This document shows, piece after piece, positions 10,204 to 46,680 of a DNA stretch of 64,000 nt (positions within the stretch are counted from its first letter, which is position 1; every line of letters starts with the position of its first letter). This stretch comes from Maricaulis maris MCS10 (lineage in GTDB: Bacteria > Pseudomonadota > Alphaproteobacteria > Caulobacterales > Maricaulaceae): contig NC_008347.1 in NCBI RefSeq assembly GCF_000014745.1, positions 620,001 through 684,000 of the forward strand, read 5' to 3'. Under the pieces are notes generated by a model. It had not been told where the DNA came from. It saw nothing but the letters and a program-made list of their open reading frames with translations, and did no database searches. Position numbers and translations under genes: made by a program.

Positions 10204-11370
10204 ATGTTTCAGGACCCACTCAATGTGCCCCGTCCGGCCTTTCTCGAGCGCGAGGATGTGCGGATGTTCGAGGACTCGGTGCGCGGCTTCATGGCCAAGG
10301 AATGCGTGCCCAATGCCGAGCGCTGGGAAGAGCAGGGCATGGTCGATCGCGAGATCTGGACCAAGGCTGGCAAGGCGGGAATCCTCTGCCCGTCCGTGCC
10401 CGAGGAATATGGCGGCGCCGGTGGTGATTGGGGCCATGAATACGTCTTCCATACAGCGGGTGCCGAGATCGGCGCTGGCGGCTGGGGTGTCGGTCTGCAC
10501 AATTCCATCATCGCACCCTATGTCACCCATTACGGTTCGGAAGATCAGAAGAAGTCGGTCCTGCCGCGGATGATTTCCGGTGACCTGATCGGCGCCATCG
10601 CCATGTCCGAACCGGGCACGGGCTCGGACCTGCAGAGCGTCAAAACGACGGCGATCAAGGACGGCAATGGCTATCGCATCAATGGCCAAAAGACCTTCAT
10701 CACCAATGGCGGCTCGGCCAATTTCATCATCGTGGTGGCCAAGACCGACCCGGAAAAGGGCTATGACGGTGTCTCCCTGCTGATGGTCGAGACCGACAAG
10801 GTCGAGGGGTTCCGCCGCGGCCGCCTTCTCGACAAGGTCGGCATGAAGGCCCAGGACACGGCCGAGCTCTTCTTCGAGGATGTCTGGGTTCCCGCCGATG
10901 CCTTGCTTGGCCAGGAAGAGGGCCAGGGCTTCATCCAGCTGATGCAGCAATTGCCCCAGGAACGCCTGCAGATCGCCGTCCAGGGCGTCGGCGCGATGAA
11001 GCGCGCCCTGCACGAGACGATCAACTACACCAAGGAGCGCGAGGCGTTTGGTCGTCCGATCCTGAAATTCCAGAACACCCAGTTCAAGCTCGCCGAATGC
11101 AAGACCAAGGCGACCCTGGCCGAGGTCTTCACCCATCACTGCTCGGAACGCCTGATGAAGGGCGAACTCGACGCCGCCACCGCCTCGATGGCCAAATACT
11201 GGGTCTCCGAAGCCCAGAACGAGGTCATGGACGAATGCGTCCAGCTGCATGGCGGCTACGGCTATATGCGCGAATACCCGATCGCCAAGATGTGGACCGA
11301 CAGCCGCGTCCAGCGGATCTATGGCGGGACAAACGAGATCATGAAGCTGCTGATTGCGAGGACGCTTTAG
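10204..11370 (+). CDS. acyl-CoA dehydrogenase, long-chain (LCAD)-like
   Basis: 388 residues, standard length, with N-terminal helical domain, middle beta domain (AMSEPGTGSDLQSVKTTA near residue 135) and C-terminal helical domain. The segment MQQLPQERLQIAVQGVGAM followed by INYTKEREAFGRPI resembles long-chain acyl-CoA dehydrogenases. The C-terminal motif reads IYGGTNEIM, with Gly where short- and medium-chain enzymes carry the catalytic Glu. In LCAD/IVD-type enzymes that Glu comes from an earlier helix. ATG 10204 has GGGAGG seven bases upstream. It is the second dehydrogenase of the cluster, 137 bases after the first. Confidence 0.9.
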   Translation: MFQDPLNVPRPAFLEREDVRMFEDSVRGFMAKECVPNAERWEEQGMVDREIWTKAGKAGILCPSVPEEYGGAGGDWGHEYVFHTAGAEIGAGGWGVGLHNSIIAPYVTHYGSEDQKKSVLPRMISGDLIGAIAMSEPGTGSDLQSVKTTAIKDGNGYRINGQKTFITNGGSANFIIVVAKTDPEKGYDGVSLLMVETDKVEGFRRGRLLDKVGMKAQDTAELFFEDVWVPADALLGQEEGQGFIQLMQQLPQERLQIAVQGVGAMKRALHETINYTKEREAFGRPILKFQNTQFKLAECKTKATLAEVFTHHCSERLMKGELDAATASMAKYWVSEAQNEVMDECVQLHGGYGYMREYPIAKMWTDSRVQRIYGGTNEIMKLLIARTL

Positions 11371-11390
11371 GGATGGAACAGGGCGCTCTG

Positions 11391-11569
11391 CTTTCCTCCC
11401 CACGCCAGTGGGGAGGGGGACCGCGAAGCGGTGGAGGGGCCGCCGCGCGAAGGCGCGGCGGAATCTTCGTGGCACGCGCCGAACGACCGTCTCCGCTCGC
11501 GCTGCGACGGGCGCCCCTTCGACCCGATGCTGCGCATCGGCCCACTTCCCCACTGATGTGGGGAAGAAA
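11391..11569 (+). repeat. family-B palindromic intergenic repeat, copy 1
   Basis: It opens with CTTTCCTCCCC and a short hairpin closing with GGGGAGG, then GGACCGCGAAGCGGTGGAG. It ends with CCACTTCCCC-loop-GGGGAAGAA. The middle is longer than in the other two copies and contains an extra CCGCCGCGCGAAGGCGCGGCGG hairpin-like segment. Two more copies follow at 12207 and 12741 in the same orientation. Confidence 0.75.
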
Positions 11570-11590
11570 TCCGGCGACGGAGCGCGCCTG

Positions 11591-12196
11591 ATGTACACGC
11601 CCACACATTTCCGGATGGAAGACGAGAGCGAGATGCGGGCGGTGATGCGTTCGTATGATTTCGGTCTGCTGCTCATTCCGGGTGAGCCGGATCTGGCGGC
11701 GACGCATATCCCGTTCAAGCTGGCCGATGAGCGCCTGGTCCTGATCGGCCATGTCGCCATGGCCAATCCGGCGTCGGCGGCGATCAAGGCGGGCAAGGAG
11801 GCTATGGTCGTTTTCACCGGGCCGCATGCCTATGTCTCCCCCTCCTGGTATGCCAAGCCGAACGAGAATGTGCCGACCTGGAATTATGTCGCTGTGCATG
11901 CCTTTGGTAGGCTGGTGCCGCTCGAGGGTGTCGAGGCCGAGCGGGCGCTGTCCTCGCAGATCGCCGACTTTGAAAGCGAGTGGCGGATCACCAATCTGGA
12001 AGAAAAGCGCCGGGCCATGCTGGAGCTGGCCATCCAGCCCTTCGAGTTCGAGATTGACCGCCTGGAGGGCAAGGCCAAGCTCTCCCAGAACAAGCCATTG
12101 GAGGAACGCCTGCGCATCGCCCAGGCCCTCAACGAACGCGGCGAACACGCCGTCGCTTACCACATGATCGAGGACGAGGCGGAAGAGGATGATTGA
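11591..12196 (+). CDS. PaiB-like FMN-binding protein
   Basis: 201 residues, matching the usual length of the PaiB family (FMN-binding negative transcriptional regulator). It starts in the expected way (MYTPTHFRM) and carries the conserved stretch HIPFKL near residue 40, HVAMANP near 55 and a PSWYAKP...VPTWNY motif near 80-95 that is diagnostic of the family. Actual DNA binding is doubtful in most members; the fold is a flavin-reductase split barrel. ATG 11591 is used because upstream codons in this frame fall inside a repeat. It lies between repeat copies 1 and 2. Confidence 0.85.
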   Translation: MYTPTHFRMEDESEMRAVMRSYDFGLLLIPGEPDLAATHIPFKLADERLVLIGHVAMANPASAAIKAGKEAMVVFTGPHAYVSPSWYAKPNENVPTWNYVAVHAFGRLVPLEGVEAERALSSQIADFESEWRITNLEEKRRAMLELAIQPFEFEIDRLEGKAKLSQNKPLEERLRIAQALNERGEHAVAYHMIEDEAEEDD

Positions 12197-12206
12197 ACAC
12201 GCTCTT

Positions 12207-12351
12207 CTTTCCTCCCCACGCAGTGGGGAGGGGGACCGCGAAGCGGTGGAGGGGTCGGCGAAGCCGATGAATGGTGCTGGTCATACTGCGCTGCGCGCCG
12301 CCCCATCGACTTCGCTTCGCTCAGCCACTTCCCCATGGAATGGGGAAGAAA
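12207..12351 (+). repeat. family-B palindromic intergenic repeat, copy 2
   Basis: Same frame as copy 1: CTTTCCTCCCCACGCAGTGG at the left, GGACCGCGAAGCGGTGGAGG and GTCGGCGAAGCCG next, CCCCATCGAC in the middle, and CCACTTCCCC...GGGGAAGAAA at the right. It starts 10 bases after the PaiB stop and ends 44 bases before the DUF559 start. Confidence 0.8.
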
Positions 12352-12395
12352 GAGGTTTGAGCTTGCAGGCTCCGGAACCTCCGAAATACCGTGCG

Positions 12396-12944
12396 ATGAA
12401 ACGCGCGCGGTCGCTGCGCAAGCGGATGACGGACGCTGAACTTATTCTCTGGTCGCGGCTTCGGGCGCGTCAGCTGGAGGGCTTCAAATTCCGTCGCCAA
12501 CATCCGGTTGCGCCTTACATCGCCGACTTTGCCTGTGTCGAGTTGAAGCTCATCGTCGAGCTTGATGGTGACACGCATGGCACGCCGCAGGAATTAGCGC
12601 ATGATCGTCGCCGTACCGGTTTCCTGGAAGCGGCGGGCTGGACGGTCATCCGAGCCTTCAACATCGACGTCTATCAAAATCTCGATGGCGTCCTCACCCA
12701 GATATCAGACGCGTTGCACACGGCCGGAAGAGCCGCAGCGCTTTCCTCCCCGCGTAGCGGGGAGGGGGACCGCGTAGCGGTGGAGGGGTCGGCGAAGCCG
12801 AATGCCTCATCGCAGTCTTTGACTGCGACCCCATCGACCCTCAGGCGCGATGCACCCGAGGGCCACTTCCCCGCAAGCGGGGAAGAAAAGAGAACGCATA
12901 CCCAGTCGATAAAGGGAACCACCCCGCCAAGGGAAAGGAACTGA
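12396..12944 (+). CDS. DUF559 Vsr-like endonuclease-fold protein with repeat-derived C-terminus
   Basis: About 115 residues of DUF559 domain followed by a tail read from a repeat. The domain shows [19 protein letters not shown], then [18 protein letters not shown] and [11 protein letters not shown], the very-short-patch-repair-like PD-(D/E)XK core, and AGWTVIRAF near residue 90. After residue about 115 the frame runs straight through repeat copy 3, so the last 65-70 residues are translated repeat and unlikely to be functional. ATG 12396 matches the family start; the ORF is open further upstream through copy 2. Cellular role of DUF559 proteins is unknown. Confidence 0.8.
12741..12890 (+). repeat. 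family-B palindromic intergenic repeat, copy 3, inside the DUF559 reading frame
   Basis: CTTTCCTCCCCGCGTAGCGG at the left, GGACCGCGTAGCGGTGGAGG and GTCGGCGAAGCCG next, and CCACTTCCCCGCAAGCGGGG at the right. Stem loops differ from copies 1 and 2 by paired changes (ACGCAGT versus GCGTAGC). It overlaps the 3' part of the DUF559 reading frame and ends 56 bases before the thiolase start. Confidence 0.8.
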
Positions 12945-12946
12945 CC

Positions 12947-14152
12947 ATGACAGAAGCCTATATCTTCGACGCCACGCGAACGCCGCGCGGCAAGAAAAAG
13001 AACGGAGCGCTCAACGAGATCACTGCGCTGCAGCTGGCCACCCAGCAGCTCGCCGCGATCCGTGACCGCAATAATCTCGACACCGCCCTCGTCGATGACG
13101 TGATCATGGGTGTCGTCTCGCCGGTCGGTGAGCAGGGCGCCAATATCGCCCGCTCCGCCGTGATCAATGCCGGCTATGCCGAGACCACGGGCGGCTACCA
13201 GCTCAACCGTTTCTGTGCCTCGGGCCTGGAAGCGGTCAATGTAGCGGCCGCCAAGGTGATGTCCGGCGAGGCCGATTTCGCCATTGGCGGCGGCGTGGAA
13301 GCCATGTCGCGCGTACCGATGGGTTCCGATGGCGGCGCCATGGGCGTCGACCCGGAAATCTCCTTCGACAACTATATCGTGCCGCAGGGCGTCTCCGCCG
13401 ACCTGATCGCCACCAAGTACGGCTTCTCGCGCGATGACGTGGATGCCTATGCGATGGAAAGCCAGAAGCGCGCTGCACGCGCCTGGGAAGAAGGCCGCTT
13501 TGCCAAGTCGGTCGTCGCCGTGAAGGACCAGCTGGGCACCACCATCCTTGCCCATGACGAGCACATGCGTCCGGGCACCGACATGCAGGGCCTCGGCTCG
13601 CTGAAGTCGGCCTTCAAGGACATGTCGGACTTTGTCGGCTTTGAAGCCGTTGCCACCCAGCGCTATCCCGAGATCGAGTATCTCAACTGGGTCCACACCG
13701 GCGGCAATTCCTCGGGCATCGTTGATGGCTCGGCGATGGTTCTCGTCGGCTCGAAAGAGGCAGGCGAGCGTGCCGGTCTCAAGCCGCGGGCGCGTATCCG
13801 CTCGATGGCCTCTGTCGGTTCCGAGCCGACCATCATGCTGACGGGGCCGGTTCCGGTCACCGCCAAGGCCCTGAAAAAGGCCGGCATGGAAGCCGGCGAT
13901 ATCGACCTGTGGGAGCTCAACGAGGCCTTCGCCGCCGTCGTGCTCCGCCTGATGCAGGCCTATGAGATCGACCACGACATCATGAATGTGAATGGTGGCT
14001 CGATCGCCATGGGTCACCCGCTGGGCGCCACCGGAGCGATGATCCTGGGCACCGTCCTCGACGAGCTGGAGCGCACGGGCAAGCAAACCGCCCTGACCAC
14101 GCTCTGCGTCGGCGGCGGCATGGGCACCGCGACGATTATCGAGCGGGTGTAA
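12947..14152 (+). CDS. acetyl-CoA acyltransferase (thiolase), beta-oxidation
   Basis: 401 residues, usual thiolase length. Acylated cysteine lies in [12 protein letters not shown] (about residue 90), the catalytic His in [16 protein letters not shown] (about 355), and the second catalytic Cys in TLCVGGGMG (about 387). It starts [18 protein letters not shown], the common alphaproteobacterial FadA-type start. ATG 12947 has AAAGGAA about eight bases upstream. It performs the thiolytic last step of beta-oxidation, together with the FadJ-like protein encoded downstream. Confidence 0.92.
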
Positions 14153-46291: not shown

Positions 46292-46425
46292 CCTCTCCCC
46301 GACCGGGGAGAGGATTCAAGGTGAGGGGCGGCCGCGGAGCGGCCCGGAAAGGTTATGTCTGGCGCGGCTGTCGCCGCGTGCCCCTCATCCGCCCTTCGGG
46401 CACCTTCTCCCCGGTCGGGGAGAAG
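46292..46425. repeat. CTCTCCCC-type intergenic repeat (family C), copy 1
   Basis: CCTCTCCCCGACCGGGGAGAGG hairpin, then AAGGTGAGGGGCGGCCGCGG, and at the other end CCCCTCATCC-GCCCTTCGGGC and CTTCTCCCCGGTCGGGGAGAAG. This is a widespread alphaproteobacterial intergenic mosaic repeat. It starts 28 bases after the PD-(D/E)XK-like gene. Confidence 0.7.
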
Positions 46426-46467
46426 GCGGGGGCCTCGCTTTTTTTAAGCTGAAACGTCCTCTCTCCT

Positions 46468-46513
46468 CCGTCATCCCCCGGATGCCCGCGACGCGGTCAC
46501 CGTGGGATGACGG
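46468..46513. repeat. GTCATCCC-type inverted repeat (family D), short copy 3
   Basis: CCGTCATCCC and GGGATGACGG enclose a 26-base middle with GACGCGGTC. Shorter than copies 1 and 2. It sits between the two family-C repeats, so the 46265-46737 gap is filled with repeats and holds no gene that I can support. Confidence 0.6.
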
Positions 46514-46566
46514 TGTGATTTATGGGGTTTCCAACGCCTTGCCGGCACAGAAAGAGACGCGTCTTT

Positions 46567-46680
46567 CCCTCTCCCTCGGGAGAGGGTGGCCGGAGGCCGG
46601 GTGAGGGGTGACTTCCGGTGCCAGGGCGCTGATCCCCCTCATCGCCCTTCGGGCACGCTCCCCCCGGTCGGGGAGAAGCG
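46567..46680. repeat. CTCTCCCC-type intergenic repeat (family C), copy 2
   Basis: CCCTCTCCCTCGGGAGAGGG at the left, GGTGGCCGGAGGCCGGGTGA next, then CCCCTCATCGCCCTTCGGGC and CCCCCGGTCGGGGAG at the right. Same plan as copy 1 with different stem sequence. Confidence 0.65.

Follow-up and report, generated by a model that had tools for sequence, protein, structure and literature searches.

The window, a stretch of 64,000 nucleotides from Maricaulis maris MCS10 (NC_008347.1, positions 620,001 to 684,000), carries a DUF559 nuclease gene that lies outside any intron or intein, with an FMN_bind_2 gene and a thiolase gene as separate neighbours, and that is enclosed by two direct copies of a palindromic repeat of ~150 bp (copies 2 and 3; Table 1). 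The two copies share 93% identity, and the 61-nt repeat cores of the three copies in this region start at 11392, 12207 and 12741. This bracketing, which had been described in an earlier note made from the letters of the DNA, was borne out and is rare around control ORFs (3/225). The repeat consists of a left hairpin, CCTCCCC...GGGGAGG, a purine arm, GGTGGAGGGG, and an inverted CTTCCCC...GGGGAAG hairpin at the other end, with pyrimidine/purine stems that form perfect or near-perfect hairpins. Folding of copies 2 and 3 as single-stranded DNA gave z values of -5.1 and -5.4, respectively (copy 3 trimmed to 12743-12892), and the arms GGTGGAGGGG and GATGGGG seem, by eye, to mirror the stem. An Rfam search over 11000-13200 returned three matches at E < 1, all far under their gathering scores.

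The open frame, from 12189 to 12944, encodes 251 aa. Because copy 3 starts at codon 185, the last 67 residues are translated repeat, in agreement with the 65-70 residues estimated earlier. Copy 2 lies within the same open frame, and therefore the real start of the DUF559 gene is probably after 12353.

Table 1 Features of the DUF559 locus, in positions of the window.
Feature	Position	Strand	Remarks
Repeat copy 1	11391..11575	+	solo, lacks DUF559; upstream of FMN_bind_2; hairpins at 11395-11416 and 11545-11566
FMN_bind_2 (PF04299) gene	11591..12196	+	left neighbour; Pfam
Repeat copy 2	12207..12353	+	unlike, inward-facing hairpins 12211-12231 (CCTCCCC/GGGGAGG) and 12328-12348 (CTTCCCC/GGGGAAG)
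DUF559 (PD-(D/E)XK, Vsr-fold) nuclease gene	12360..12944	+	start codon uncertain; open frame 12189-12944; domain 12393-12716
Repeat copy 3	12741..12893	+	direct relative to copy 2, within the 3' part of the DUF559 frame; hairpins 12745-12765 and 12866-12885
Thiolase (PF00108/PF02803) gene	12947..14152	+	right neighbour; Pfam; anchor for finding the orthologous site

Nuclease fold and kinship of the repeats

The window protein matched only DUF559 and MTES_1575 in Pfam, with the DUF559 domain (PF04480) at residues 69-176 of the 251-aa ORF scoring 121.4 bits against a cut-off of 20.6. Searches in NCBIfam gave PRK09767 as the best match (95.3 bits, below the cut-off of 218) and only 12.8 bits for the vsr profile (cut-off 97.85), while PADLOC returned four weak matches with a best E of 0.00047. 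An AlphaFold2 model built from 36 sequences, the window protein and its relatives, reached a mean pLDDT of 87. Its nearest solved structure is 3HRL, a gonococcal putative endonuclease-like protein (Z 16.2, 48% identity to the model sequence), followed by the homing endonuclease I-Bth0305I (3R3P; Z 13.0, rmsd 2.4 over 90 residues) and Vsr (Z 10.3). Six residues are invariant in the 36-sequence alignment (E25, D54, E65, D67, H71 and D80), which is consistent with an active nuclease; E25, D54, H71 and D80 may correspond to the E, D, H, D catalytic motif of EDxHD homing endonucleases. The likeness to I-Bth0305I concerns the fold of the catalytic domain, whereas EDxHD genes are found in introns and inteins and the DUF559 gene here is intergenic between repeats. 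A cyanobacterial genome paper assigns a DUF559-containing gene to the EDxHD family in a section on inteins (PMC9403480).

The earlier note had likened the locus to REP elements, with the nuclease holding the place of the RAYT transposase. RAYT (TnpAREP) is an HUH Y1 transposase. The DUF559 unit does resemble REP/REPIN and RAYT in that a gene lies between palindromes repeated through the genome and that gene-less pairs also occur, but the repeats differ and the enzyme belongs to PF04480 with a PD-(D/E)XK/Vsr fold; membership of the REP/RAYT system was thus ruled out on protein family, as no HUH Y1 transposase is present. Instead, the repeats resemble those called BoxC, PIT or "triplex motif" (TM), which have been known since the 1990s. 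As seen in the accessible portion of Holder 2015, where TM were named and tied to rearrangement, they occur in E. coli among others, their origin is unclear, and remnants of transposases or integrases were never found beside them (PMC4666352). E. coli K-12 carries five inverted TM pairs, in all of which type A is joined with type B (PMC4666352), and one hundred such palindromes are given for Enterobacter 638 (PMC2869309). TM and window repeats have in common a hairpin with a purine-rich arm and inverted pairs of two unlike types. They differ in that TM have CCCTCTCCC-type stems and the window stems are CCTCCCC and CTTCCCC, so that the latter depart from the consensus; the same genome also has CCCTCTCCC-type copies elsewhere. 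No enzyme is named for TM in the accessible text of PMC4666352, whereas a DUF559 partner accompanies the repeats here, and no report tying DUF559 to TM repeats was found in the open-access literature, as far as its texts were available. Three more TM-type palindromes, of CCTCTCC/CCTTCTCC type, lie at 46292-46585 of the window.

Palindromes around DUF559 genes and across genomes

Bracketing was scored as the best repeat common to the 500 bp on either side of a gene, with thresholds of at least 40 and at least 60 bits. Sample A comprised 39 DUF559 loci from 37 alphaproteobacterial genomes; its 40 initial regions, of which L182 was dropped, were drawn from 38 of the other 46 genomes of the class with a strong DUF559, picked for contig room after some brackets had already been seen. 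At 40 bits, DUF559 genes were bracketed at 26/39 loci, compared with 3/225 control ORFs of the same regions and 8/1181 random positions; at 60 bits the corresponding numbers were 16/39, 1/225 and 2/1181. The enrichment of repeats near DUF559 genes, on which the earlier note had staked its case, is therefore strong. Set B comprised 80 loci from named genomes, of which 8 were left out to give 72, and L101, L103 and L127 were also removed to give 69 for bracketing, all of them near a contig end. It leans to close relatives because it was found with a Maricaulis alignment, and near-duplicates or MAGs account for several of its entries. Bracketing at 40 bits was observed for 33/69 DUF559 genes in this set, against 8/411 control ORFs and 40/1956 random positions. 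The threshold and the palindrome pattern were fixed after viewing the Maricaulis and class loci; the phylum draw and the test on Vsr genes came later.

Many bracket repeats share one plan, a CCCTCTCCC-like stem, a loop, GGGAGAGGG and an arm such as GGGTGAGGG. A TM palindrome lies within 250 bp of the DUF559 gene at 35/39 class, 48/72 set B, 22/26 phylum and 20/29 genus loci (one of 27 phylum DUF559 loci was left out as too short), and the density of TM palindromes falls from 3.9/kb within 200 bp of DUF559 to about 0.05/kb at 400-6000 bp. Positive loci include records labelled Phycisphaerales, Chloroflexota, WOR-3 and Deltaproteobacteria, all MAGs. Vsr genes, which encode the same fold, were bracketed in 0/24 cases and had a TM palindrome within 250 bp in 0/24 (6/30 left out as too short). 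The partnership of DUF559 genes with these palindromes, and its specificity, are thus observed directly. Of 65 loci with two-sided palindromes, 34 allowed the arms on either side to be read, and both face the gene in 24 of these 34. Among 459 asymmetric stems near DUF559 genes, a mirror match beat a direct match in 130 and lost in 66, with the rest tied, so that a mirror (triplex) rule is weakly supported. No matching palindrome was present within 250 bp at 24/72 set B loci, 11 of them in Rhizobium (L077-L081, L083, L084, L086-L088 and L111), where the DUF559 gene is possibly a stably inherited copy. The E. coli DUF559 gene ycjD has a repeat-like gene end and a repeat ~170 bp downstream, with repeats on the downstream side only.

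The association extends to whole genomes. Palindromes were counted as CCTCYCC-N3-16-GGRGAGG, a genome with at least 10 being termed repeat-rich and a small DUF559 with a best E of at most 1e-20 being termed strong. Among Alphaproteobacteria, 41/47 genomes with a small DUF559 were repeat-rich, compared with 11/143 without (AUC 0.93); a further set from the class gave 37/38 against 6/28. The other classes of the phylum gave 19/31 with DUF559 and 17/182 without (AUC 0.81), or 18/20 against 16/119 when one MAG family was removed. When genomes were paired within families (class draw) or within genera, the DUF559 genome was the richer in palindromes per Mb in 11/12 and 5/6 pairs, respectively. There are exceptions in both directions. 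Five class genomes with a strong DUF559 have fewer than 5 palindromes, and outside the class fewer than 10 were counted in 12/31 strong-DUF559 genomes, of which ten belong to one MAG family. Conversely, repeat-rich genomes without a strong DUF559 include G175 (74 palindromes), G145 (59) and G196 (58) in the class, and G354 (198), G333 (116) and G390 (91) outside the first class set.

PF01541 (GIY-YIG) was intended as the negative control, a role that Vsr took over after brackets had appeared around GIY-YIG genes as well. Although none of 24 GIY-YIG genes had a TM palindrome within 250 bp (6/30 left out as too short), 13/24 of these small genes (L251-L280) were bracketed by other palindromes, of GTCATNCC...-type and TTCGACAAGCTCAG-type, and a rough hand-made motif list placed GIY-YIG-type palindromes near 8/24. 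This suggests that GIY-YIG genes and their own palindromes form a second nuclease-repeat partnership. At L338 in the Maricaulis genome G004, the gap that has DUF559 in M. maris MCS10 (G000) instead has a GTCATCC...GGATGAC-like repeat; both classes of repeat have apparently entered the same intergenic position.

Occupied and gene-less sites

The MCS10 genome (3,368,780 bases) has four DUF559 genes, all of them bracketed by direct repeat copies. Two, L001 and L002, are one 669-bp unit present at two places with unrelated flanks, and the common sequence stops at the outer repeat arms. Their genes are identical at 372/372 bases; the seven differences between the units are confined to the two repeats and their edges, leaving 509 identical columns, gene included, between the third and fourth. 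Other Maricaulis DUF559 genes compared (matches of at least 280 bases) reach at most about 77% identity to this gene, and the L001/L002 duplication therefore reads as recent from the alignments.

The window site was compared in 18 Maricaulis orthologues including G000, one of which (G016) is interrupted by a contig end. Seven have DUF559 at the site (G000, G007, G018, G001, G010, G014 and G005), three carry only a repeat (G015, G008 and G002, the last with half of one) and seven are clean (G017, G003, G004, G011, G009, G013 and G012). The presence of DUF559 at this place in divergent relatives shows that the window copy is old and not a fresh insertion. At the L001 site, four of 18 orthologues have other neighbours (G017, G007, G003 and G018), and among the remaining 14 DUF559 is present in G000 only. 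A single repeat pair occupies the exact spot in G016, which is 94% identical to G000 beside the site, and in G002, and the left boundary common to these three genomes is GATTT followed by CCCCCTCA. G001 has a pair in the same gap, G015 another pair and G004 an unrelated repeat, while eight genomes are clean. The simplest reading, and a probable one, is a single lineage-specific gain in G000 at a site where relatives have the repeat. The right-hand neighbours of L002 vary among relatives, giving no clear polarity. The earlier note had asked whether gene-less relatives keep one repeat as an empty site, and this is so for only a part of them. One repeat remains in 3/10 at the window site, with the other 7/10 clean, and in 3/13 at the L001 site, where two more have other repeats and 8/13 are clean. 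Gene-less alleles of DUF559 sites thus do exist.

Gene-less pairs were also found away from these sites. The ends of the DUF559 element L289 in G032 are unlike each other, and ~110-bp gene-less pairs in that genome have both of these ends, with unmatched flanks. L285 matches L289 at 46/47 positions of the left end and 90% of the right, L282 at 93% and 91%, both with only a short spacer between, and L288 matches at 47/48 of the left end and retains a DUF559 remnant between its ends. L285, L282 and L288 are thus MITE-like with respect to L289, being non-autonomous copies with both element ends; the common ends are an observation from this one genome. The L285 pair folds into a single long hairpin (z = -9.1). 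Seven gene-less pairs were read in G069; the arms point outward in five of them (L292-L295 and L297), which have a short spacer, as compared with the inward-facing DUF559 copy L291. Visual inspection of L001, L002 and the G032 pairs revealed no clear target-site duplication. At the E. coli hrpB-mrcB site, strain E20 lacks the pair and the adjoining bases also differ, while strains War and E50 are deleted between the hairpins. Because nearby bases differ and deletions lie between the hairpins, these sites give no clean target-site duplication. Two E. coli plasmid matches were considered as fresh insertions and ruled out, being set among chromosome-type genes; at L308, plasmid p94_0962-1 has a TM-like stretch with flgG on one side and flgF on the other.

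Origin and spread of the repeats

Because the same nuclease-repeat partnership recurs in many bacteria, DUF559 probably spreads TM-type repeats. We consider it fairly likely that BoxC/PIT/TM-type repeats have small DUF559 proteins as their mobility nucleases, and that the unit is copied via cutting and recombination, with the gene-less pairs derived from it. The basic unit would be a TM hairpin, a DUF559 gene and a second TM hairpin, of ~430 bp, with purine-rich arms usually toward the gene, and hairpin pairs without a gene (~85-150 bp) would be its gene-less derivatives, comparable to REPINs of RAYTs or MITEs of transposons. DUF559 is predicted to cut at or beside the TM hairpin, upon which host recombination would copy the unit, or a gene-less pair, into a repeat-occupied site in a homing-like manner, and the gene would end up with a repeat copy on each side, the arrangement seen in the window. 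From these patterns we infer both that the repeat is cut by DUF559 itself and that the nuclease drives the copying. The mobile repeat-plus-nuclease unit proposed earlier is in line with the enrichment, the repeat-rich genomes and the gene-less sites; a recent insertion in the window is not supported, as divergent relatives also have DUF559 there.

In the main rival, DUF559 would be a homing gene, mobile or selfish, for which the repeats are only landing sites, older than the gene and spread by another route. The homing-endonuclease fold, the pair-gene-pair of G000 at the L001 site where relatives have a repeat pair, and the genomes that are repeat-rich without a strong DUF559 would all fit such a passenger. 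We regard it as unlikely, given that repeats are scarce in most DUF559-less genomes, also within families, and that gene-less pairs have both ends of a DUF559 element, one with a gene remnant. Clearly less probable is that DUF559 is a Vsr-like mismatch-repair nuclease, with repeats marking horizontal transfer or giving terminators. Vsr is indeed a structural neighbour, and Caulobacter VsrA, which has a DUF559 domain, is linked to cytosine methylation, not to repeats, in the accessible text of its report, where it is required for the DNA damage response of cells without the ScmA methyltransferase (PMC12907096). Against this stand the unbracketed true Vsr genes and the window protein's score far below the vsr family cut-off, and a role in repair gives no expectation for the number of repeats across a genome.

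The association could also be an artefact, if G+C-rich intergenic palindromes were common and DUF559 genes happened to sit in such gaps; the sequences are of low complexity, the pattern was picked after the first brackets had been seen, and in four genomes without DUF559 (G283, G319, G323 and G338) a reversed control pattern reaches about the same frequency as the palindrome pattern. We find this very improbable, as control ORFs and random positions are rarely bracketed, Vsr and GIY-YIG loci lack TM palindromes, and the reversed pattern is far rarer than the palindrome pattern in most repeat-rich genomes.

Returning to DUF559 as the mobility nuclease of the repeats, a wider reading is put forward tentatively, as possible though short of probable. 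DUF559 units may be very small (~430 bp) autonomous mobile elements with one Vsr-fold nuclease gene between unlike hairpin ends, present in several phyla, of which BoxC/PIT/TM repeats would be the gene-less offspring; GIY-YIG genes with other palindromes would be a parallel class, and nuclease-palindrome elements may be a general kind. With a partner nuclease, the origin and instability of TM repeats become open to direct test, and DUF559, a large protein family whose name still stands for "unknown function", acquires a likely role. If the GIY-YIG parallel is true, much bacterial palindromic repeat DNA may be tied to small nucleases, not to transposases.
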